Assembly (NCBI GenBank): GCA_030695905.1
Contig: JAUYOL010000028.1
Span: 1-39,134, forward strand
Length of the DNA: 39,134 nucleotides
Source: Candidatus Omnitrophota bacterium
GTDB lineage: Bacteria > Omnitrophota > Gorgyraeia > 2-01-FULL-45-10
Direction: 5' to 3'
Part shown: piece after piece, positions 1 through 10,585 of the stretch
Position numbering within the stretch: the stretch's first letter is position 1
Layout of the letters: each line of letters starts with the position of its first letter
The notes under the pieces: model-generated
What the model was told of the DNA's origin: nothing
The model's input: only the letters and a program-made list of their open reading frames with translations
Database searches by the model: none
Made by a program: the position numbers and the translations under genes

Positions 1-3000
1 CCGCTGTCTGTTTTGCAGAGTCAATGGCCGCCTTGGCCTGTACGGATGTCATGTTCGTGATGTCTATCTTCAACTTAGCGGCTTCGGGCTTTAACGCGTC
101 TATGGCAGCCTGTTCGGCTTTCCGGGCTTCTTCAGTCTTAGCGGATGGGGGTTCGGGTAGAGGATAATACTGTTTCTCGTATGGTATTTTTCCCTCATAT
201 ACTTCGGGCCTTACTTTATAAATCTCAAAGCCTTCTTTAGTTTTTTCGATACAGAGCAGTTTCGCAACTCCTAAATTAAACAGTTCAATAACTGCTTTTA
301 TCTTGGCGAGTCTGTTTTTTGCTTGTTGGATATTGGCGGTTTTTTTGAAGCGAGCTAACTCATATTTTTGAATAAAATCAATTGAACGGGGGGTATAATT
401 TATAGGTTCTCCCGCAAGATTAAAATAATGAAGGAGCTGATACCAATCATTATCCCTTAAAAGCCAAGACAACCTTAGGTCGTATATATCATAGAGATGG
501 CTAACCACCGAAAGCTTTTCTTCATTGGTTAACTTATTCCATTCGGGATCTTTTATAATATGCTTAAGCTCTTTTTTGGCAAAACCTCTTCTGGATGAGG
601 CGATGTTACTAGTAGTCAATGGCAGACCGAGATTCTGTAAAAATATCTTTTGTTTCCGCAGGAGTTCTGGGGTTCTGGAAAGGAGGCTTCTTCCTTTTCC
701 ATTCACAATGCCTAAACCTAACTCATCATGAAGATAGCGTATTCTCCCTTTTAAATCTATTTTCTGTGATTTAAGCAGCCCTTGGACGCTCTTGGAGGAT
801 AAAGACTTTAAAAACTCTATAGTCTGGTCGATCTCCGCACTGGTTATCTTGCTTTCTTCAGGTACAACTTGAGGCGGAGTTTCCGGCTGTATTACTGTTT
901 CAGGCGGTGTTTCTAGAGGCTTTGCTGTTTCGGATGGCGTAACAACTGATGGTGGCTCTTCTTTAACAATTTCGGCTTTAGGTTCTGGTACCTTTTCTTC
1001 TGCCTCTTGTGATGCCTTGGCCTTTTCTTCATTAAGTCTGGCAAGCTCATCCTTTACTTTATCCGATTCGGCTTTTAAGCGAACTATCTCAAGATTTGCA
1101 TCCGCTATCTCTTTCTCCTGCGCAAGACGTATCTTTTCAGCTTCTGCTAATGTTGCCTTTGATTGATCTATCTGGCTGTCTACGTTATGAAGAGCGTCTT
1201 TTGCTAATTGTATTTCTTGAGCTAAAAGTGCTTTTTCAGCCTCTTTTTCAGCTATTTCATGCCTAAGTTGATTTAACCTTTTTCGGCTCTTATATATGCT
1301 AATAGATAATATAATAATACCTAGACTTAGGATGCCCAGCATAGAAAGAATTGCTTCCCAATGACTGCCCAACCAAGTCTTTTCATTCTCCTTGGGATTT
1401 TCCACTACATTAGCAGGTTTCGTTTCCGCAGTATTAAGTTTACCTTTCAGAGTTGATGCTTCGGCTTCCAAAGATTGTTTCTTTTCTTCTAGTGCCTTTA
1501 TTTTAAAAGCCGCTTCATTTTGTTCCTGAGCTGCTTTGGCTAATTTTTCTGCCTGGGTTCTATTCTCTTCTGCCTGAGCCCTTATTTTATCTTGAGCGAT
1601 TTTTACTTCCTGTTCCGCCTCCTCTAACTTAGTCTTTGCTTCTAGCCTTTGAGCTTCTAACACTTCGACTTTTGCTTTATCTACTCTAGCCTCTTCTACA
1701 AGTTTTGCGATATTGGATAACATACCCTTGATTTCTTCTTGGCATTTCTTGATATCTTCTTGGGATTGCTTTAATAAATCCTTTATCTGCATTTCTACTT
1801 GCGATGGGTTTACACTTGGTTGAGTAGCCTGAGGCGCGAGAGAAACTTCTGGAGCCACTACGATAGGAGGAGTAACAACCTGAACATTTTTAGTTTCAAT
1901 TATTCTACGGGCTTCTTCTACGGCTGTATCATAGGTAATTCTCTTTGCGCCTTGAGGTGTTTCAACTTCTACAGATATTATTCGTTTAGGAAAGACTCCT
2001 AACGAACCAACATCTTCATATGCTTCAGAACCTGTTACGGGCTTAAGACCTAAATCCTGGGCGAATCTTATTAAATCCTTCTCTGTGCCATATATTATCT
2101 CACTGCCATCAGAAAGCTTTACAATAGCGCCTACCACAGGATGATTGATATAGGGTGCGACTATATGTCTATTCCCTCTAGAATAGCTGATATTAGTTAT
2201 ATCCGCTGGGTTTATCCGTACTTCTTTTGTTTCTACATAGTAAACAGCGGTGGTGCCGTTATTCAGTTTTTTAGACAATTCCAAAGCCGATTCATAGGTA
2301 AGGGTTTTAACGCCTTCGGGCGTCTGGGCATCCATTGAGATAACGCGCTTTGGTGCTAGTCCTAATGATCCTACGTCTTCACGTTTTTCTGTTCCTGCAA
2401 TAGGTGTAAAGCCAAGATCCTTAATAAATCTTCTTAAATCCCATTCTGTGCCGTAAACAATCTGTGTTCCGTCATTAAGCTTTACAATGGCTCCTACCAC
2501 AGGATGATTGATGTAAGGCGCCAATAGATGCCGGGTGCCCCTTGAGAAAGCCACCTCAGTAATATTCTTTGTACTCAAGGCGGGTGTTTTATCTACATAT
2601 ATCTTGCCCTGCAAATCTAAAATCCGATCACCCTCTTTTAGTTCCTTTAAGCCAACTGATGGTTTTAGTTCGCCTGTTAACGGTCCTAAACGCATCTCGC
2701 CTTCGCCGCCTAATTTTAAAGATTCCCGGAGGCCTTCACCTTTTGAATCTTTAATCTTCTCTGCACCAAGAGAAACACCTGCGCTGACTTCAATAGGCGG
2801 TTTACCTTTCGGAATATCGCTTAAACCAATAGACGATTTTACGTCTCCAACCACAGGCAGAACATCTGCTCTGACTTTTCCTTTTACATCGGTAGATTCG
2901 GTTAAAGAAGACAAATCACGCAGTTTTTTCTCTTCGGTAGATTTAATATTAAATTTTAGGTCTACGGGTGGTGCGCCTTTTTTAAGGTTAACTATGGAAA

Positions 3001-4222
3001 CTGAGGGTTGTATGCCCATATTTAAAGGCCCTGTTTTAGCCTTTACACCGACAGCCAAATCAATCTGGTCTTTGGCTACTTTTTCCTCAACCTGCCCTTG
3101 TCCTAAAGAAATCCTTGCATTTAGATCGACTATCTTCTCTCCCTCATGCGGCTTATTTATTGAAACAACGGTATCGTTACGTATTTGAAGCGGACCCAGG
3201 CGCGCGCTAAAACTAGTCGCACAGCCCGTAACCAACAATATAAGAGAAAACATAAGAGGCATAACAAGACGTCTGAATAATGGCAGGATTCTTTCCATTA
3301 GAGATGGTGCGGTAAGTTTTTTGGCTGGTCGTTGTTCTAAAGATTTTTCGGTGCTTAAGCGCTTGGATTCCTGTTGCCTTAAAGAATCTGCTATCTTCTT
3401 ATCTATTACTTCTATATTCGCCTTTAATGCCTTTACCCTATCTAATATTGAAGTCTTCTTGCCTTGCAGATCCCTTAGTTTTTCTTCAAGCTGCTGTTTC
3501 TTTGTCTGTAATCCATCTAATTCTGCCTTGCGCCCGGCATCGGCATCATCCTGCTTCAAAGAAGATAACTTTGCGTTAATGCCGGATTTCTCAGTTTCTA
3601 AATTAGTAATATCTTTCTCTGCTTCTGCGATGACCTTCCTTAATATGTCTATTTCTTCAGATACTTTATCTCTATCCGCTGATAAGGCTATCTTTCCCCC
3701 GGATAGCGTATTGTCAACTTCGGCTACCTGTATGCCGAACTTCGCTGACACAGCCCAATGAGAATTTGTCTTATTTAGATCGCCTATCTTTTCTTTCGGA
3801 CATATTTTTACCATATATGCCCTGCCGTCCTTTGAATACCTTACAGAAACAACGCCGTCTTCATTATTTATGCTATCCAAATCAAACCCGTTCAATAGTT
3901 CTATATTTTTTCTGAATTCTCTTTCGACAACGGGCTTAACATACCTAATCGGAAGATGATCAGTTAGTAAACAGGCGCCTATAGAGAATGCTGCTGTGAG
4001 GAACCTCATATCTGATAATACCGAGTTCTTAAACTCTATGGATTTTTCATTAGGGAAGGATTGCTGAAATACTGAAGGCGGAGAAAGTTTATGGGCTCCC
4101 ATTTCGCCTCCGGTAGCCCATGTGATATCATACAGCAGGAATGCCTGAATGATTATTATTGAAATGACTCTTATGAAAAACCTTAGCCTCTTATTTTCGC
4201 TCCAAGCTATCATTATAGTCAT
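1..4222 (-). CDS. Giant multi-domain coiled-coil membrane protein, 3' end beyond the window
   Basis: A single reading frame stays open from an ATG at 4222 to the left edge, at least 1407 codons, with no stop, so the C-terminus is missing. Residues about 13-36 form a hydrophobic N-terminal signal or anchor ending in a possible cleavage site (DITWA). A Lys/Glu/Gln-rich coiled coil spans about 185-305. A second hydrophobic stretch at about 318-333 ends in a lipobox-like LLVTGC with Cys334. A beta-rich low-complexity region follows, then two copies of a 121-residue repeat (about 553-775), a second coiled coil (about 810-945), a membrane segment (about 955-980), a third coiled coil, a Pro/Glu-rich linker (about 1075-1125) and an alpha-helical tail. 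A second ATG lies three codons in (4213), so the exact start is uncertain. No enzymatic domain was recognised; a structural or cell-envelope role is an inference. Three small genes precede it on the same strand. Confidence 0.85.
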   Translation of the reverse strand, partial: MTIMIAWSENKRLRFFIRVISIIIIQAFLLYDITWATGGEMGAHKLSPPSVFQQSFPNEKSIEFKNSVLSDMRFLTAAFSIGACLLTDHLPIRYVKPVVEREFRKNIELLNGFDLDSINNEDGVVSVRYSKDGRAYMVKICPKEKIGDLNKTNSHWAVSAKFGIQVAEVDNTLSGGKIALSADRDKVSEEIDILRKVIAEAEKDITNLETEKSGINAKLSSLKQDDADAGRKAELDGLQTKKQQLEEKLRDLQGKKTSILDRVKALKANIEVIDKKIADSLRQQESKRLSTEKSLEQRPAKKLTAPSLMERILPLFRRLVMPLMFSLILLVTGCATSFSARLGPLQIRNDTVVSINKPHEGEKIVDLNARISLGQGQVEEKVAKDQIDLAVGVKAKTGPLNMGIQPSVSIVNLKKGAPPVDLKFNIKSTEEKKLRDLSSLTESTDVKGKVRADVLPVVGDVKSSIGLSDIPKGKPPIEVSAGVSLGAEKIKDSKGEGLRESLKLGGEGEMRLGPLTGELKPSVGLKELKEGDRILDLQGKIYVDKTPALSTKNITEVAFSRGTRHLLAPYINHPVVGAIVKLNDGTQIVYGTEWDLRRFIKDLGFTPIAGTEKREDVGSLGLAPKRVISMDAQTPEGVKTLTYESALELSKKLNNGTTAVYYVETKEVRINPADITNISYSRGNRHIVAPYINHPVVGAIVKLSDGSEIIYGTEKDLIRFAQDLGLKPVTGSEAYEDVGSLGVFPKRIISVEVETPQGAKRITYDTAVEEARRIIETKNVQVVTPPIVVAPEVSLAPQATQPSVNPSQVEMQIKDLLKQSQEDIKKCQEEIKGMLSNIAKLVEEARVDKAKVEVLEAQRLEAKTKLEEAEQEVKIAQDKIRAQAEENRTQAEKLAKAAQEQNEAAFKIKALEEKKQSLEAEASTLKGKLNTAETKPANVVENPKENEKTWLGSHWEAILSMLGILSLGIIILSISIYKSRKRLNQLRHEIAEKEAEKALLAQEIQLAKDALHNVDSQIDQSKATLAEAEKIRLAQEKEIADANLEIVRLKAESDKVKDELARLNEEKAKASQEAEEKVPEPKAEIVKEEPPSVVTPSETAKPLETPPETVIQPETPPQVVPEESKITSAEIDQTIEFLKSLSSKSVQGLLKSQKIDLKGRIRYLHDELGLGIVNGKGRSLLSRTPELLRKQKIFLQNLGLPLTTSNIASSRRGFAKKELKHIIKDPEWNKLTNEEKLSVVSHLYDIYDLRLSWLLRDNDWYQLLHYFNLAGEPINYTPRSIDFIQKYELARFKKTANIQQAKNRLAKIKAVIELFNLGVAKLLCIEKTKEGFEIYKVRPEVYEGKIPYEKQYYPLPEPPSAKTEEARKAEQAAIDALKPEAAKLKIDITNMTSVQAKAAIDSAKQTA
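1900..2566 (-). repeat. Two-copy 363-bp tandem coding repeat in the giant protein
   Basis: Two consecutive repeats with a period of 363 bp (121 codons) lie inside the giant gene; the second copy is shorter at its end. Each copy contains the nearly identical segment APYINHPVVGAIVKL, followed by DG-x2-I-x-YGTE, a DLGxxP segment, EDVGSLG and a T(P)xG-x-(K)-x-(I/L)TY segment. The Tyr/Asn/His-Pro core is almost unchanged between copies at both DNA and protein level, which suggests recent duplication or strong constraint. I do not recognise the domain family. Confidence 0.85.
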
Positions 4223-4306
4223 ATCGCCTAATTTTATTGATACATTACTGTGCCTGATGTTAAAGTAATCAAACTATACCATGAATTCCTTGCATTGCAA
4301 CAACAA

Positions 4307-4660
4307 TTATCTATATTTTTTATTACTTAACATTTCTGCATTGTTTCCCACTCGTGGTGACTGGAATTTCCTACGTCGTAGCCTATTCTTATTGTTGCCT
4401 TTTCCATAATCGGCATAGATTCTCAAGGACTCTTTCACATCATTCAATATTCCTTTACCGGGATCGCTGAGTAAATGGTGGCTAATTTTGTTGTTTGTGG
4501 CTGCTAGCGGGTTAAAATATACCTTAGCGCTTGTAATGCTGTTGTCTCCGTCTATGCCTTCTATTTCCAAGCTTTGCTCCTTTAGAATAACCTTTATGAC
4601 AAAGTTGAACCTTTTATAGTTGTAGATCTCAGTAAAGATTTCTTTATCTGTCTTTGTCAT
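4307..4660 (-). CDS. Hypothetical protein, 117 aa
   Basis: A 117-residue protein of unknown function. The N-terminal two thirds alternate hydrophobic and charged residues in a pattern expected of a small alpha/beta domain (FNFVIKVILKEQSLEIEGI). The C-terminal third is very basic (NKNRLRRRKF) and may be disordered or bind nucleic acid. A plausible ribosome-binding AAGG lies nine bases before the ATG. It is third in a run of small minus-strand genes leading to the giant coiled-coil gene and follows a structured 80-bp gap. No family was recognised; the reading frame is supported by its position and start signal only. Confidence 0.55.
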   Translation of the reverse strand: MTKTDKEIFTEIYNYKRFNFVIKVILKEQSLEIEGIDGDNSITSAKVYFNPLAATNNKISHHLLSDPGKGILNDVKESLRIYADYGKGNNKNRLRRRKFQSPRVGNNAEMLSNKKYR

Positions 4661-4691
4661 ATTACCGCGCCTTCCCCACCCTATCTATAGT

Positions 4692-4731
4692 GCCGGGTCA
4701 CGCACGGGGAAAACGGTTGTCGTAACCCGGC
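4692..4731 (-). other. Intergenic hairpin between two small genes
   Basis: An 11-bp inverted repeat (GCCGGGTCACG and CGTAACCCGGC, one C/A mismatch that becomes a G-U pair in minus-strand RNA) encloses an 18-base loop. It starts nine bases after the stop of the zinc-ribbon gene and ends 31 bases before the next ATG. It is not followed by a U-tract, so it is more likely an mRNA processing, stability or regulatory structure than a simple terminator. Confidence 0.5.
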
Positions 4732-4740
4732 TTCAGGATA

Positions 4741-4938
4741 TTATCCTCTTGCCAAGCGTAGCAAGGAGAATATCCCGAATCGTTTAATGGGTTTTAGATT
4801 TTCATGGTCTTCGGGTATTACCTTGTGCTTCCCCCCACATTTATCACAATTAACTTGCTCAGGAGAAGCTGTATACCCTATGGACCCACATTCTGTGCAC
4901 TGAACTCTCTCTGCCACAAAAATCGCCTTCTTTCTCAT
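4741..4938 (-). CDS. Small zinc-ribbon protein, 65 aa
   Basis: A 65-residue protein with two CxxC knuckles, CTEC at residues 14-17 and CDKC at 31-34, spaced as in a rubredoxin-like zinc ribbon that would bind one Zn(II). The tail is basic and partly hydrophobic (IFSLLRLARG). Its ATG overlaps the TGA of the gene before it by four bases (ATGA), so the two are very probably translationally coupled. No catalytic residues are visible; small zinc ribbons of this kind usually act in protein-protein or nucleic-acid contacts. The specific partner is unknown. Confidence 0.7.
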   Translation of the reverse strand: MRKKAIFVAERVQCTECGSIGYTASPEQVNCDKCGGKHKVIPEDHENLKPIKRFGIFSLLRLARG

Positions 4939-5111
4939 TTCTTAAGCGAGTCGATAAGGGTCAGCGGTATGTTATCGCCAACGCCCTTATCCTCATCGTT
5001 AAACAAATATGCTTCTTTGTTTAAAAGAAACATCCCTATTAAAAACGACAATATAACTGGCATCTGGTGCGAATGCTTCGCTATCTCAACTATATGGTTT
5101 ACTCTAAACAT
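4935..5111 (-). CDS. Small hypothetical protein, 58 aa, first gene of the left operon
   Basis: A short gene that is easy to miss. It has a strong Shine-Dalgarno (AGAGGTG) four bases before the ATG at 5111, a promoter at a suitable distance upstream, and a stop that overlaps the next start by four bases (ATGA). The 58-residue product carries a hydrophobic stretch (MPVILSFLIGMFLL) at about residues 17-30, then an acidic tail. This is consistent with a small membrane-associated or amphipathic protein. It is the first gene after the shared control region and is divergent from the XRE-cupin regulator, which probably controls it. Function unknown. Confidence 0.7.
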   Translation of the reverse strand: MFRVNHIVEIAKHSHQMPVILSFLIGMFLLNKEAYLFNDEDKGVGDNIPLTLIDSLKK

Positions 5112-5146
5112 AGGACACCTCTTTCTGTTCTTTTAACTACACTTAA

Positions 5147-5337: not shown

Positions 5338-5931
5338 ATGAAAATCGGTGATAACATAAAAAAAATACGGAAAGCACAAGGACTAAAACGTTCTGACTTA
5401 GTAAAGAAACTTCGCTTTACTTACGGCGAGAACGCGTTGGGATACCGTACTATTCAGAGGATAGAGCGCGGTGAGAACCTGAAAGATAGGCTCTCTTCCT
5501 TATTGCAGCTTGCCTATGTTCTAGGTGTAGACTTAAATCAATTCTATAAAAGCACAGAATACGAGGATAAAGCGCAGTTAGAAGAAGCGGCCAAGGAGAT
5601 CTGCATAACGAAGCCCAAAGCCAGGGGCGGAACATTTAGATATAATGATAGGGCTGTCCTAGAAATTGTCTCCCCGAAGAATAGCGGCTATATGTCAATG
5701 CTCATGGAGCTTGAGCCGAATTCCAAGACAAAGCAGGAACAGGATCCTGAAGCAACCATAAAATTTATGTTTGTTATAGCGGGTGAAATAACGATTGTAG
5801 TAGAAGAGCTTGAAAGGACGCTATCTAAGGGAGATTCCGTTCAGATAAATAGCCACAGACCGCATCATTTCGAGAATAGATCCAAAAAGAAATCTCTTGC
5901 CATATTGTATCAAAATCCGAAGCGGTTCTAA
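5338..5931 (+). CDS. XRE-family transcriptional regulator with C-terminal cupin domain
   Basis: A 197-residue regulator. Residues about 4-65 are an XRE/Cro-type helix-turn-helix (IGDNIKKIRKAQGLKRSDL, then a recognition-helix region ending in RTIQRIERGE). Residues about 110-195 form a small beta-barrel cupin with a GDSVQINSHRPHHFENRS turn, the usual ligand-sensing domain in XRE-cupin proteins. Such proteins typically repress or activate adjacent genes in response to a small metabolite. It is transcribed divergently from the 58-aa gene through a control region holding symmetric boxes, which suggests autoregulation together with control of the left operon. Its stop overlaps the end of the convergent response-regulator gene by three bases, so the two transcripts collide. 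The start relies on a promoter with almost no leader. The ligand is unknown. Confidence 0.85.
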   Translation: MKIGDNIKKIRKAQGLKRSDLVKKLRFTYGENALGYRTIQRIERGENLKDRLSSLLQLAYVLGVDLNQFYKSTEYEDKAQLEEAAKEICITKPKARGGTFRYNDRAVLEIVSPKNSGYMSMLMELEPNSKTKQEQDPEATIKFMFVIAGEITIVVEELERTLSKGDSVQINSHRPHHFENRSKKKSLAILYQNPKRF

Positions 5932-6314
5932 ACCAACGGGAAAAATTGATTTCTTTTTTTCAGCTCTTTTGTCACCTTATCGTAAAGTTCCACTAGCGAG
6001 CTGCCCTTCGTTATGTATTCGTCAATACCTCTACTCTGACATGCCTCAAATACCTGATCGCTATCCCATCCTGTAAAGACTATCTTATACATGGGCATGT
6101 CCTTAGCAATGTCTAGTACCTCGATACCGCTTTTTTTAGGCATCCTTATATCAAGAATCATCATATCGCAGGGATTATTCTTTATATATTCTATCGCGTC
6201 TTCGCCATTTATGGCCGATGGGAAATTGCCCTTTATCCGCAATTCAAGATAATTTTTGATATTATCTAACTGATCCCGTTCGTCATCTACTATCAATATC
6301 GTGGGAATACTCAC
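5928..6314 (-). CDS. Single-domain response regulator (CheY-like)
   Basis: A 128-residue stand-alone receiver domain. The acidic triad D10-D11-E12, the phospho-acceptor D55 in ILDIRMP, T81 and K103 are all present, so it should accept phosphate from a histidine. There is no output domain. It is the last gene of the synthase-phosphorelay operon, and its start overlaps the preceding receiver gene by four bases. Single-domain receivers act as phosphate shuttles or bind partner proteins; here the partners are presumably the H-box protein and kinases encoded upstream (inference). Confidence 0.9.
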   Translation of the reverse strand: MSIPTILIVDDERDQLDNIKNYLELRIKGNFPSAINGEDAIEYIKNNPCDMMILDIRMPKKSGIEVLDIAKDMPMYKIVFTGWDSDQVFEACQSRGIDEYITKGSSLVELYDKVTKELKKRNQFFPLV

Positions 6315-6691
6315 TTTGTCTCCTCCTCGTATATTTCATTTATCAGCTTGTGCGCCGCTTTGAGAACATCATCAAAGTTATAGGGTTTAATTATATAAGC
6401 TGAAGCCCCTAAATCCATACAGGTTTGACGAGTCTTATCATCTTCCACCGCGGTAAGCATGATAACACGTATTTTTGGGTTTATTTTTTTGGCCTGTCTC
6501 AGAACATCTATCCCTGTCATGCCTTCCATAATAATATCTAATACAATGATATTGGGCTTTTCTTTTTTAATGAGCGCAATGGCTTCGGGACCACTAGTGG
6601 CGGCCATAGCATGATAGCCTCGCTGTATTAGGAATTCTTTTATTTGATGCGATACTCCTGTTTCATCATCTACAACTAAGAATTTTATCAT
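6311..6691 (-). CDS. Single-domain response regulator (CheY-like)
   Basis: A 126-residue stand-alone receiver with D8/D9, phospho-acceptor D52 (VLDIIMEGMTG), T80 and K102, so fully competent for phosphorylation. No DNA-binding or enzymatic output follows. It overlaps the next receiver gene by four bases (coupled translation) and starts 12 bases after the stop of the degenerate-ATPase gene. The two tandem receivers are clearly different in sequence (IIMEGMTG versus IRMPKKSG around the acceptor), so they are unlikely to be simple duplicates and may receive different inputs. Confidence 0.9.
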   Translation of the reverse strand: MIKFLVVDDETGVSHQIKEFLIQRGYHAMAATSGPEAIALIKKEKPNIIVLDIIMEGMTGIDVLRQAKKINPKIRVIMLTAVEDDKTRQTCMDLGASAYIIKPYNFDDVLKAAHKLINEIYEEETK

Positions 6692-6703
6692 AACTTTTAC
6701 CTC

Positions 6704-7336
6704 TCAATCATTTGAAGGCAGCATAACTGTTATTCTAGTGCCAAAAGAAGGTGCGGCTTTATAATAGAATTTGCCTCCCATACGCTCTAATATCTTTCTT
6801 ATACCTTGCTGTTTCTTTATTTTATCGGGTGGCAAGTCATCTAACTGGCGGCACACGGGATCCTTTATAATGATTATTTTCCAAAGCTTTCTTAAAGTAA
6901 AAGATATCATAACTTTTGGATTATTAAAACCTAAGTATGTGAGAAGCTCCGTCCATTTTTCGATAGCATCTCCGTGAAGATAGCCTTCAACGGCGATCTT
7001 GTTTATTATCCTGAGTCCGGAAATCAATGCGCCCCAGTCTTCAAGTTCTGATTCCAAAGCTGCATCTTGTCGTGCCTCGAAACTAGGTAAAAATGTCTGG
7101 CGTTCTTTCATTTCATACATTAATGCCTTCCCTTTGTTAAAATACTTTTCGGTTTCTTCTAGACACTTCAAGCGGGCAACGGGATCGGAAAGTCCTCGAA
7201 GAGCCATGAGGTTTTTTCCCATTTCCTGCTTTGATTTTTCTATCTCACGAGAAAGCCTTTCAGCGATAAAAATTTCCTTGAAAAGTTGAAATAATCCTAT
7301 CCGTTTTTTCTTGTTATTAAGTAATGGGCTTACCAT
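6704..7336 (-). CDS. Orphan, degenerate histidine-kinase ATPase-like protein
   Basis: A 210-residue protein. The last 30 residues match the end of a histidine-kinase ATPase domain: the pattern GI-x-KILERMGGKF followed by SFGTRITVMLP corresponds to the lid end and G2 box. The N-box asparagines and the DxGxG G1 motif expected before it are not recognisable, and no clear H-box is seen. The N-terminal half is helical and charged, perhaps a dimerisation or adaptor region. It may be a pseudo-kinase or an ATPase half that pairs with the stand-alone H-box protein two genes upstream; both ideas are inference. It starts four bases after the ACP stop, so it is co-transcribed with it. Confidence 0.6.
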   Translation of the reverse strand: MVSPLLNNKKKRIGLFQLFKEIFIAERLSREIEKSKQEMGKNLMALRGLSDPVARLKCLEETEKYFNKGKALMYEMKERQTFLPSFEARQDAALESELEDWGALISGLRIINKIAVEGYLHGDAIEKWTELLTYLGFNNPKVMISFTLRKLWKIIIIKDPVCRQLDDLPPDKIKKQQGIRKILERMGGKFYYKAAPSFGTRITVMLPSND

Positions 7337-7340
7337 AATC

Positions 7341-7604
7341 CTATACTATACTCCCGTATCCCTTGCCCTCTTGTATCAATTTCTTGTTTATATAGTCTAT
7401 AACGTCTTTTACTGTCTTCGCTTTTTCTGCATCCTCATCAGGAATTTCAATGCCGAACTGTTCCTCTAATTCCATTACAAGCTCGACCGTATCAAGAGAA
7501 TCGGCTCCGAGGTCTTCTACAAACCTAGCGTCATCCTTTACTTCTTCCTCTCTTACACCCAATTGTTCCGCTATAATTTTAACCGCTCTATCTTTTATAT
7601 CCAT
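7341..7604 (-). CDS. acpP: Acyl carrier protein (AcpP-like)
   Basis: An 87-residue acyl carrier protein. The phosphopantetheine site is S36 in the canonical [14 protein letters not shown] context, and the acidic helix II and IPDEDAEK segment are typical of housekeeping AcpP. The frame extends to a GTG at 7610, but the AAGG ribosome-binding site is correctly spaced only for the ATG at 7604. Its position is odd: it lies between the stand-alone H-box protein and the degenerate ATPase, not beside the ketosynthases, yet in the same minus-strand unit. It could be the genome's general AcpP or a carrier dedicated to this cluster; the sequence looks like the general type, unlike the more divergent ACP at 13291. 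Confidence 0.93.
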
Positions 7605-7611
7605 GAGCACC

Positions 7612-8070
7612 TTAATACTTACCTAAAGCAGTAAGCTTGTCTTTGCACAAATTCATCGCCTTTACCATATATTGGCATATCGGTTGAAATTTCTTCACCT
7701 CTTCGCCGAATTGCAATAAGTTTTCTTTCTTGTCATATTTTAAAAGATAGTTGTACGATATCTCGCAAGTTTCCTCGGCTTCCTTTAAGCCTTTTAATCC
7801 ATGATTGATACACTCCTGCAATGTATCAGCAATATCCTTGCTTTCTATTTTATCTAACGCAGCTGCTACTAATTTGAGCTGCTCGGCGATTTTCTCTCTA
7901 CAAGAAAAGATGTCCTTATAAGCATTGGTCAAATTTTCTTTGAGATTGCCTTCCAGTCTTTCCATATTGAATGTGGTAATATATGAAATGCATATTTGAG
8001 ACATCGTATTTATCGTACCTGTAGGGCCCGATAGATCATGAAATAGCTTGTGGAGAGGCTCATTTATCAT
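7612..8070 (-). CDS. Stand-alone histidine phosphotransfer/DHp-like protein
   Basis: A 152-residue, almost fully alpha-helical protein. It opens with an H-box-like motif, [12 protein letters not shown], with His11 followed by Asp12 and a conserved-type Pro16, as in the dimerisation and phospho-acceptor helix of histidine kinases. Long helices follow, but no ATPase domain, so it resembles a DHp-only phosphotransferase in the manner of Spo0B or ChpT. It lies directly after a receiver gene (12-base gap) and before the acpP-like gene. The likely role is relaying phosphate between the receivers of this operon; the motif is seen, the role is inferred. A phosphatase or scaffold role is the alternative. 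Confidence 0.65.
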
Positions 8071-8082
8071 CTTTATATACTC

Positions 8083-8460
8083 TTATTTTATATTCTTCGC
8101 CAATTCTTGTAATGTATCACTAAGTTTGTCAAAGTCTATTGGCTTACCCAAGAACATAAAGGGGTTATATTGGTCGCATACTTTTACAATACTATCGTCC
8201 TTGCCATAGCCCGTTGCCACGATGACTTTTATATCTGGATATTTTTGGCTTGTTTGTTTTAATACCTCAATACCTGTTATAGGTGAATCTTCTAGCTGCA
8301 AATCACATAATACTACATGAGGTCTTTCCTTTTCGATTATTCTAAGGGCTTCATCGCCCTTTGGTGTAGCAAAAACTTTGTAGTCCATCAGTTCGTATAT
8401 ATCTTTTAGGCTATTTAACAGGATTATATCATCCTCAAGGATTAGTAGCTTTAGAGCCAT
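8083..8460 (-). CDS. Single-domain response regulator, coupled to the histidine kinase
   Basis: A 125-residue receiver with D10/D11, phospho-acceptor D53 (VLCDLQLED), T83 and K106 (FLGKP). The loop after D53 has a small insertion (LEDSPITGIEVL) compared with typical receivers. No output domain. The gene begins 26 bases inside the end of the histidine-kinase gene, which implies tight translational coupling and suggests this is the first phosphate acceptor for that kinase. The next gene downstream encodes the H-box protein, giving the gene order kinase, receiver, H-box protein, as expected of a phosphorelay. Confidence 0.92.
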   Translation of the reverse strand: MALKLLILEDDIILLNSLKDIYELMDYKVFATPKGDEALRIIEKERPHVVLCDLQLEDSPITGIEVLKQTSQKYPDIKVIVATGYGKDDSIVKVCDQYNPFMFLGKPIDFDKLSDTLQELAKNIK

Positions 8461-10585
8461 TAAAGCCCTCCTGTTCTTTTGGAAGTTCTACTGTAAAGGT
8501 AGTGCCTTTGCCGTATTCTGAAGAAAACGAAATCTTGCCCTTATGTTGTTCTATCCAGTCCTTCATAGAATATAAACCTGCTCCGTCGCCCTTACGCTCC
8601 GCTGACTTTGTGGTAAAGTACCCTGCAAAGAGCTTTTCTTTTACATCATCCTTCATGCCTATGCCATTATCTTCGATGGTTATAGCAATATTTCCGCCTT
8701 TGTCTTTAGCTGTAATGGTTATCTTACCTCTGTATGTGCCATCCGGTTTTAAATAAGAGTCTCTCCACATTATGGCATCGAATGCGTTATTTATTAAGTT
8801 TTCAAGGATCTGCTCTACCAAGCTTTCATTCCCTATTATGTGAGGGAGGTTTTCTGAGACGCCGTTGGTTATAACAGGTGCTGAGATATTTCGCTCCAAG
8901 ACGTCTTTTGATTTTGTGCGAGAGGACTGTTCTAACGCTTGTTTTACGATTGCGTAAACATTCAATTCGGCGAAATCTTCCTTGACCTTCGCGGGATAAA
9001 GGATAGCATCGAGCATACGCTTACCTTTTTCTGCTTCCTTTAATATCCCCTGCATACTATCCTTTGTTACGTTTAGTAAAGACTGTGCTTTTTCAAGAGT
9101 TACCTCTTTCGACTCCGTAACCTTTATAGCGGTAGATACGAATTTAGCACTGGCGGCGAGTCTCGCTAATATGTTTTTCATCTGATGAGCCGCTCCAACA
9201 GAAGTTTTATCAATACCTTTCTTCTCACTTTTTTCCGCTATCTCCTTGGTAAGTTGGGCATTCTTTATGGCAATCGCTTCTGTGCGCGCCAAGTCCATGA
9301 GCATAGTTAACTCTCCTTGAGTATAATACTCATCTGATTTTTTCTTACCCAAAAGGATAATACCTATAAGTTCATCGCGAATTAATAACGGCACCGCTAA
9401 ACTAGCCTTAAGGCTAAGCATTTCGTTTTTTATTTCTTCGCTTATTTTTTTGTCATTTTCATCCTCAATGGATAAAATATCTTTTATTGACTTCAAGCAT
9501 TCTGAGATCGGTGAGTCCTTTCCAATAACCCGGACTGCGCTTTCATCCTTAGCACCGTGCGATATATATCTGTCATTGTTTAATAGAAGAATATCTGAAT
9601 ATTTAGGATGAAGTTTCTCTAATAAATCTATGGTTCTAGTAACAATTTCGTCGATATCCAACACCGTAGCGACATCATCTATGAAAGGTTTTATTATTTG
9701 GCTATAAAAGTCATACTTTTTTTGAAAAAGGTATTTATTGGTAATGGCAATTAAAAAATTTTCTATTGGCCTATACGCAAGAATTATAATCAAACAACTT
9801 ATAGCGGCCCCTAAAAGTCTGCCTCCCATAATAACCTGCTGTATCAAAAATGTTATTCCAACAAATATGCCGAAGATTATTGTAAGTAAAGTTGCAAAAA
9901 CAACCGTCTTTTTAATTACAACATCTACATCCATGAGGTGATGTCTTAAAATTGCGTAAGTTGCTATGAGGCAATAGATAGGAATGGTAATATTACCAAA
10001 AGGGTAAATAGGGATTTTAAACATAAGGATAAGCGTTGAGGCTCCGCCTACAAATCCAGTAAGAAATCCAAAAATTATATAAAGAGTCTGAATGCGTTTA
10101 GCACCTTTTGTTTTTGGGAAAAATCTTAATAACTCAAAGAAGCTAACGCATACTATAAACAACCATGAAAAAACAAGGCTGGCATAAAGCCAAGTAGCAT
10201 CGTTATAATAAGGGATGCCATAAACAAAACGTGTTTTTGCAAATAGCAAATTTGTAAAAAAACAAAAATAGAGAAAAAACATGCTCCATATATACACAGC
10301 AATAAGTTGTATTCTTCGTTGCAGACCACAAAAAATACATACCAAATGATAAAAGAAGGTAGCGATAAATATTCCACCGGATTGACCAAACCTCCATCCG
10401 AACAGCGCCATTGGCTCACTAGCTGCCCTACTAACCCAAAAACAACCATAACCCCATATAGCCACTGAAATGTTAAAAAAAGCTAGTATGCGATGAATCT
10501 TCGCTCTGCCAAATATCAGTGTAACAAGAGCTAAAATTGTGCAAAAAACACCGCAAGCAATGCTTGTTACTGCAAATAAATTCAT
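8435..10585 (-). CDS. Sensor histidine kinase with 7TM N-terminus and GAF domain
   Basis: A 716-residue membrane sensor kinase. Residues 1-250 hold seven or more hydrophobic segments in the style of the 7TM sensor of histidine kinases, including the characteristic YAILRHHLMDVDVVIKKT boundary near 210-227. A GAF-like domain spans about 300-445. The phospho-acceptor His467 lies in GAAHQMKNILARL, followed by a complete ATPase: N-box about 596-600 (NLINNAFDA), G1 at D639 (EDNGIGM), the GDGAGLYSM lid region and a G2 box (GKGTTFTVELP). All catalytic parts are intact. Its start overlaps the stop of the CrtI-like gene by four bases and its end overlaps the receiver gene, so sensing and synthesis genes share one transcript. 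The signal is unknown; a lipid or the pathway product is a reasonable inference. Confidence 0.93.
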   Translation of the reverse strand: MNLFAVTSIACGVFCTILALVTLIFGRAKIHRILAFFNISVAIWGYGCFWVSRAASEPMALFGWRFGQSGGIFIATFFYHLVCIFCGLQRRIQLIAVYIWSMFFLYFCFFTNLLFAKTRFVYGIPYYNDATWLYASLVFSWLFIVCVSFFELLRFFPKTKGAKRIQTLYIIFGFLTGFVGGASTLILMFKIPIYPFGNITIPIYCLIATYAILRHHLMDVDVVIKKTVVFATLLTIIFGIFVGITFLIQQVIMGGRLLGAAISCLIIILAYRPIENFLIAITNKYLFQKKYDFYSQIIKPFIDDVATVLDIDEIVTRTIDLLEKLHPKYSDILLLNNDRYISHGAKDESAVRVIGKDSPISECLKSIKDILSIEDENDKKISEEIKNEMLSLKASLAVPLLIRDELIGIILLGKKKSDEYYTQGELTMLMDLARTEAIAIKNAQLTKEIAEKSEKKGIDKTSVGAAHQMKNILARLAASAKFVSTAIKVTESKEVTLEKAQSLLNVTKDSMQGILKEAEKGKRMLDAILYPAKVKEDFAELNVYAIVKQALEQSSRTKSKDVLERNISAPVITNGVSENLPHIIGNESLVEQILENLINNAFDAIMWRDSYLKPDGTYRGKITITAKDKGGNIAITIEDNGIGMKDDVKEKLFAGYFTTKSAERKGDGAGLYSMKDWIEQHKGKISFSSEYGKGTTFTVELPKEQEGFNGSKATNP

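Follow-up and report, generated by a model that had tools for sequence, protein, structure and literature searches.

An open frame at the contig edge and its probable continuation

The DNA analyzed here, referred to as the window, is the whole of contig JAUYOL010000028.1 (C28; 39,134 nucleotides), which belongs to a 1.82-Mb, 43-contig genome of a Candidatus Omnitrophota bacterium with an estimated completeness of 97.5%. At its edge, reading of the open reading frames (ORFs) confirmed a frame of 1407 codons that runs without a stop through positions 2..4222 of the minus strand and leaves the contig. A preliminary description had called the product a giant protein; it is one, but the window holds only about one-sixth of the gene, which most likely continues at C34:1-21783 on another contig of the same genome. 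We consider it likely that what this frame encodes is the first sixth, from the N terminus, of a giant bacterial protein of the midasin type that is tethered to the membrane.

Leftward extension of the contig led by overlap to C34, which starts with 7,260 open codons that continue the frame. The last 34 nucleotides of the gene on C28 (window 1..34, minus strand) are identical to the first 34 nucleotides of C34 and join them in frame, and no further copy of this 34-mer was found in the genome with up to 3 mismatches allowed. C28 and C34 together encode a protein no shorter than 8,656 residues. At window 77..135 (minus strand) lies a stretch of about 59 nucleotides, EEARKAEQAAIDALKPEAA, that recurs at C34:65-123, about 55 codons further on; because it flanks the join on both sides, and its copy number between the contigs is not resolvable, the true length may exceed 8,656 residues. 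The sequence evidence for the join is thus strong, short of proof, and the window ORF is probably the front end of a giant protein of at least that size. That the AAA+ part on C34, described below, belongs to a separate downstream gene was set aside because the frame stays open through the join.

Two observations at this point weigh against our reading. The contig overlap is the sole tie between residues 1-1396, encoded in the window, and the AAA+ part. Furthermore, in G068, a genome of the same phylum but of another class, a 146-kb contig carries a related frame with 8,314 codons from stop to stop and a signal-peptide-like start, and comparison of the N-terminal part of that frame with the window part yielded nothing beyond coiled-coil-level similarity. 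Together with the short repeat near the contig ends, this would suit an independent surface protein whose link to C34 is an assembly coincidence. We hold that to be very improbable: the overlap is exact, in frame, and at both contig ends, without another genomic copy; both frames are open at the join; and G068 unites a signal-like start and a MIDAS motif in one frame.

The window part is composed of several segments, given here with their window positions, all on the minus strand. A signal or anchor and a module (residues 10-170; 3713..4195) are common to other ORFs of the lineage, in at least 11 of 57 genomes, its own included; in this search with the whole ORF, up to the best 10 candidates per genome were scored, and the counts are lower bounds. 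A paralogue of the module lies at C3:23125-23586 in the same genome, where a frame of 1,233 codons carries both the N- and the C-terminal module of the giant. A coiled coil follows (residues 182-297; 3332..3679), with weak SMC/Rad50-like matches far below cut-offs, and then a lipoprotein-signal-like internal segment from Met309 to Cys334 (3221..3298), made of two arginines, a hydrophobic run, and LVTGC. The next domain (residues 340-544; 2591..3205) had no family match, and its structure model stayed below confidence. Behind it stand two repeat copies (residues 545-665, 2228..2590; residues 666-786, 1865..2227), a coiled coil (residues 813-936; 1415..1786), a transmembrane segment predicted from hydropathy (residues 953-980, with Arg/Lys on its C-terminal side; 1283..1366), and a further coiled coil (residues 981-1075; 998..1282), the matches of both coiled coils being below cut-offs. 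Hydropathy maxima fall at residues 15-33, 319-337, and 958-976.

Pfam and NCBIfam searches of the window ORF returned coiled-coil matches, all below cut-offs, together with a single zinc-finger match. The latter, C2HC_ASCIZ at residues 590-603, scored 23.1 bits in the whole ORF, under the cut-off of 25, and 26.4 bits, barely over it, when residues 334-794 were searched alone; it covers 14 residues and was taken as chance. Beyond residues 10-170, no other relative of the window part was found among the candidates scored in its own genome and the 57 genomes. By these comparisons, residues 1-1396 are a variable front end of the giant.

Cys334 had drawn attention in the preliminary description as the end of a lipobox-like LLVTGC. 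This motif is present at residues 329-334, and the two arginines and hydrophobic run before it form the second hydropathy maximum. With a simple lipobox rule of our own making, 200 shuffles of the whole protein gave a mean of 0.015 hits, and 39 of 20,000 shuffles of residues 300-345 gave one; the lipobox at Cys334 exceeds chance expectation. As in bacterial lipoproteins, it stands behind an n- and an h-region. The signal of a bacterial lipoprotein, however, is at the N terminus of the translated protein, whereas here it lies at Cys334, and no Shine-Dalgarno-like sequence was seen by eye before Met309. Cys334 is possibly a lipid anchor.

A second signal-peptide-like segment, ending in AQ, was recognized by eye at residues 2869-2887 of the giant, below the hydropathy threshold, and internal segments resembling it occur in G068 and in a further relative, G074. 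With a lipobox above chance expectation and these segments, the giant could be a polyprotein that is cleaved at Cys334 and around residues 2869-2887 and whose parts act separately. This is quite unlikely in our estimate. A lipobox was found in none of 41 other translated frames (42 frames with 86,256 residues in all, some partial), and the arginines before Cys334 would have to face the cytoplasm, in conflict with a translocated N terminus, by which residues from about 38 on should be outside.

The same segment had led to the proposal that an anchored coiled-coil protein was fused with a former lipoprotein. The idea of a composite origin holds in spirit, the giant being a chain of modules (N-terminal module, coiled coils, lipobox-like segment, HEAT repeats, six AAA+ modules, HExxH domain, and MIDAS domain); its specific form, an anchored protein plus a former lipoprotein, found no direct support. 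A separate relative of residues 309-800 was absent from its own genome and from the best candidates (up to 10 per genome) in the 57 genomes.

The 121-residue repeats, previously described as recent and nearly identical in their core, are real. Aligned without gaps at a distance of 121 residues, the two copies reached a BLOSUM62 score of 333, against a maximum of -25 in 2,000 shuffles. Identity between them amounts to 60 of 121 residues and 209 of 363 bases; in the core, 53 of 85 residues are identical, with one run of identity of 15 residues. Of the 30 fourfold sites that the copies share, only 11 match, where chance would give 27%; synonymous sites are thus near saturation. Hence the duplication is an old one whose core has been conserved; this contradicts "recent," and the identity of 60/121 residues likewise speaks against "nearly identical." Structure prediction for residues 334-794 gave a predicted local distance difference test score (pLDDT) of 34.9, and that for the two repeats together gave a small alpha/beta model of medium confidence (pLDDT 71.5; predicted template modeling score 0.65). 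Compared with known structures, the latter model had no Foldseek match below E 0.38 and no VIA-align match above Z 3.5, so that the modelled fold of the repeat is tentative.

AAA+ modules, HExxH domain, and MIDAS domain of the far part

Pfam matches in the far part (residue numbers are those of the joined protein) were HEAT repeats and, downstream of them, AAA_5, a midasin AAA lid, and VWA. With a profile derived from the modules, six AAA+ modules were placed at residues 4502-4782, 4879-5144, 5873-6144, 6244-6521, 6636-6902, and 7002-7277, all six with Walker A and Walker B. They are followed by a TPR match below cut-off, an HExxH motif at 7575 with a downstream N..ED, a charged low-complexity stretch, and a VWA domain whose DxSxS MIDAS motif reads DESGSM at 8042. 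An HExxH motif was present in eight of the nine frames bearing a D.SGS[MG] motif, L078 being the exception. Hydropathy marked segments near both ends of the giant, before AAA1, and between AAA2 and AAA3, and the last of these clusters was found in all three proteins checked (the giant and those of G068 and G074). Upstream of AAA1, a segment bearing HELQH was also observed (joined residues ~4184-4312; C34 ~8362-8750). A HELLH version of it occurs in large frames of G008 and G018, where a scan for AAA modules by their Walker motifs came back empty; this segment is possibly a second metallopeptidase-like module of the giant family.

Midasin (Rea1, Mdn1), a ribosome-assembly motor of eukaryotes, removes assembly factors with a ubiquitin-like domain from pre-60S ribosomes. 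When each AAA module was searched singly against all solved structures, midasin came first for six of six, with best midasin stretches of 63.4, 82.5, 90.7, 79.0, 85.9, and 72.2 bits for modules 1-6. In the same searches, NorQ, CbbQ, and CobS, where listed, scored 22-34 bits over the whole chain, and dynein did not exceed 41.5 bits on that measure; a search of solved structures cannot weigh families that have none. The Pfam family AAA_lid_7, "Midasin AAA lid," was above its cut-off in P0002 and just below it in P0003. Similarly, the HExxH-VWA (MIDAS) region had midasin as its best solved match (E 3.6e-11), with an alignment that spans the MIDAS loop. In Rea1 this loop (yeast residues ~4655-4701) tethers the MIDAS domain to the AAA ring (PMC6624252). 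Before the VWA domain of the giant (genome G000), a loop of the MIDAS type reads KYKGDFATGTKLNLRKAM...DIWLRRVKPAKR, with close versions in G068 and G074; the Pro-Tyr of the eukaryotic proline-tyrosine nuclear localization signal was not seen by eye at the aligned place.

The giant therefore resembles midasin in having six AAA+ modules in one chain, a midasin-type lid, the order AAA1-6 and then MIDAS, a charged low-complexity stretch before the MIDAS domain, and a C-terminal VWA/MIDAS domain with a ring-docking loop. It differs in being bacterial, in its hydrophobic segments, including those between AAA2 and AAA3, in its HExxH domain, and in the ~4,500 residues (HEAT repeats and coiled coils) that precede AAA1. 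All six of its modules have Walker B, whereas AAA1 and AAA6 of Rea1 lack it (PMC6286127). Rea1 and dynein have been described as a special subclass whose six AAA+ domains are strung together within one gene (PMC6286127). The dynein heavy chain shares the six concatenated modules with the giant; it reached no more than 41.5 bits per module, and it is apparently not associated with VWA domains (PMC7159879).

Further points count against assignment to the midasin type. The best-matching midasin module was always AAA3 or AAA5 (in order along the chain), with no one-to-one correspondence to AAA1-6, and the Gly before the Walker A Lys is replaced by Ala or Ser in AAA2 and AAA4 of the four genomes examined. 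To our knowledge, an HExxH domain is not known from midasin; in the giant it lies within the ~720 residues between AAA6 and the MIDAS loop, compared with some 1,700 residues of linker that separate MIDAS from the ring in Rea1 (PMC11603028). The topology is a prediction from hydropathy. Finally, several family matches point to other bacterial proteins: the best NCBIfam match of the AAA region was bacterial GvpN (TIGR02640; 114.8 bits against a cut-off of 266.8), Pfam bpMoxR passed its cut-off, and the VWA domain passed that of CobT_C (28.3 bits against 21). CobS (TIGR01650) did not reach its cut-off on the AAA region (55.7 bits against 558.55).

Such matches would be expected if the giant were a fused MoxR/VWA machine for metal insertion, of the chelatase type (CobS/CobT, NorQ/NorD), or a GvpN-like one, in which the HExxH-VWA part would hand over a metal or cofactor to an enzyme and the likeness to midasin would reflect only a common AAA clade. 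As far as is known, bacterial MoxR-VWA systems have one AAA per chain. Like the giant, the MoxR-VWA systems (CobS/CobT, NorQ/NorD, CbbQ/CbbO) and GvpN have AAA+ modules of the MoxR clade, several with a VWA partner, and bacterial MoxR proteins work jointly with VWA partners (PMC7159879, PMC13036017). An unfused AAA/VWA gene pair also exists (L079, see below). In those systems, however, the partners are separate proteins, as they are on L079, whereas in the giant a MoxR-clade AAA+ part and a MIDAS-bearing VWA domain are fused. We judge a fused metal-insertion or GvpN-like machine unlikely, because all AAA modules score far higher against midasin than against CobS, NorQ, and CbbQ, and because the MIDAS region with its loop also matches midasin first.

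Relatives, distribution, and an unfused gene pair

The frame of G068 is collinear with the giant over residues 3188-7223 (37% identity) and 7513-8223 (39%) and, more weakly, 1439-1778 (29%). In G074, a 4,008-codon frame with an open 5′ end holds all six modules together with HExxH and VWA. In G025, the modules are split two plus four over two contigs, both open from end to end, with an HExxH as well; the second contig ends before the place of the VWA domain. The domain order is thus conserved in relatives from two classes. A further search of the 57 genomes matched at least five, its own being one, with G008, G014, and G018 matching only in the segment before AAA1. Among 384 genomes of the phylum, its own included each time, the AAA profile at E 1e-30 matched at least 4, the HExxH-VWA query at E 1e-15 at least 10, and the midasin-lid family 9, of which 8 were above cut-off; the lid family matched none of 14 control genomes. 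The best 6 candidates per genome were scored in this search of the 57 genomes and in that with the AAA profile, and the best 2 in the HExxH-VWA search, so that these counts are lower bounds. The distribution of the AAA profile is patchy, which also tells against our reading.

The phylum has further giant frames with many divergent AAA-like modules, L067, L068-L069, and L072 (genomes G112, G080, and G356), that of G080 with 10,710 codons. These frames could represent a second type of the machine, one that has diverged further.

Giant ORFs have been described from Omnitrophota as having few annotated domains and were linked to adhesion or predation (PMC10066038). The giant is like them in exceeding 20 kb (8,656 codons joined, 7,260 on C34 alone) and in its hydrophobic segments. 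It could accordingly be seen as a typical giant adhesin or predation protein of its lineage, in which AAA and MIDAS are variable cargo between common terminal modules: the N-terminal module has the spread given above, and the C-terminal module (the last ~210-219 residues; L013:1124-1780) was found in 20 of 57 genomes, its own included, at 28-56% identity, and both often stand in large ORFs. We think this unlikely, although it has more in its favor than the other alternatives, since what is conserved between classes is the HEAT-AAA-HExxH-MIDAS core and not the ends, and since ATPases require cytoplasmic ATP. The main text of PMC10066038 makes no mention of midasin, dynein, AAA, or MoxR. Furthermore, the literature searched yielded no description of a six-AAA protein of the midasin type from bacteria; PMC7203096, in which "midasin" occurs nine times and "omnitroph" six times, may bear on priority.

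A tree of AAA modules was built from 35 tips and 240 columns, with modules of four genomes, two yeast midasin fragments, and one long-branched outgroup; supports were taken from the unrooted tree. Each of the positions 1-6 grouped over the four genomes, with ultrafast bootstrap values of 100, 97, 97, 78, 98, and 99, and odd positions grouped with one another (78), as did even positions (90). This pattern fits three copies of an A-B pair that would have been fixed before the lineages split. The two yeast midasin fragments fell outside the bacterial modules, with the long-branched outgroup; midasin is not reliably placed by this tree, a further point that weighs on the negative side.

Among the matches listed in the collection scan was L079 (JALHDH010000007.1, "MAG: bacterium isolate 1-no_shock_S1_038"). 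It has a 750-codon frame with two midasin-like AAA modules and, about 75 bases after it, a 756-codon frame with HEGSHR, a similar loop, and DESGSM. The two-AAA frame aligned with giant modules 3-4 (35% over 719 columns), with 1-2 and 5-6, and also across 4-5; the second frame aligned with the giant in two pieces, 7511-7679 and 7765-8206, and its best solved match was midasin, though weak (E 2.3e-6). On L078, a one-AAA frame overlaps a VWA frame without HExxH. The pair on L079 resembles the giant in its two midasin-like AAA modules and in the HEGSHR/VWA neighbor with a similar loop, and it differs in being two separate frames, 750 and 756 codons between stops. Such a pair would be the natural ancestor type, with three two-AAA chains and a VWA partner becoming one chain. 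More tentatively, and with somewhat less than even confidence, we suggest that midasin and the bacterial giant each descend, by covalent fusion, from the same kind of bacterial operon, one encoding a tandem AAA protein and a loop-bearing VWA partner. If true, the ring with a tethered MIDAS grip would predate its use in ribosome assembly, and bacteria would still use such a ring at the membrane.

A proposed membrane machine and its genomic surroundings

In Rea1, the MIDAS domain binds a ligand and uses its loop to dock on the ring, and the removal of this ligand from a large particle is powered by ATP hydrolysis (PMC6624252, PMC6286127). By analogy, the giant would be a membrane-tethered, midasin-like remodelling machine. 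Its six AAA modules would close into a ring on the cytoplasmic side of the membrane, with the segments between AAA2 and AAA3 keeping it in place, while the MIDAS domain would bind a ligand by its metal and dock on the ring. Cycles of ATP would then pull or release the ligand, and a large assembly of the envelope would be remodelled or dismantled, as extrapolated from Rea1. A role as scaffold, tether, or sensor may fall to the HEAT repeats and to the first 3,000 residues, with their signal segments, coiled coils, 121-residue repeats, and possibly a lipid anchor. The HExxH domain may be cleaving or merely structural. The machine as a whole would have arisen by tripling and fusion of a two-gene module, a two-AAA protein and an HExxH-VWA protein, of the sort present on L079.

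A bacterial family with six AAA modules and MIDAS, together with an unfused two-gene relative, would suggest a path to the building of such rings. In addition, it would provide a bacterial system for testing the MIDAS-ring mechanism and a lead on the origin of midasin, and a function-bearing core would fall to at least some of the giant ORFs, which have been described with few annotated domains (PMC10066038).

Some features near the gene were also observed. At window 4337-4367, about 115 bases upstream of the giant gene, a 31-base stretch resembles the end of an apparent multi-copy mobile element; it has matches at most ~170 bases from the ends of C17, C18, C19, C40, and C41, and C35 has its first part. 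Directly downstream of the giant gene, at L013:1931-2974, there are two ORFs recognized by eye: one is sigma-factor-like, and the other, a small one, has a cysteine motif like that of anti-sigma zinc fingers. Elsewhere in the window, positions 5928-10585 hold a cluster of response-regulator-like and histidine-kinase-like ORFs, judged likewise by eye, that includes an acyl-carrier-protein-like ORF.

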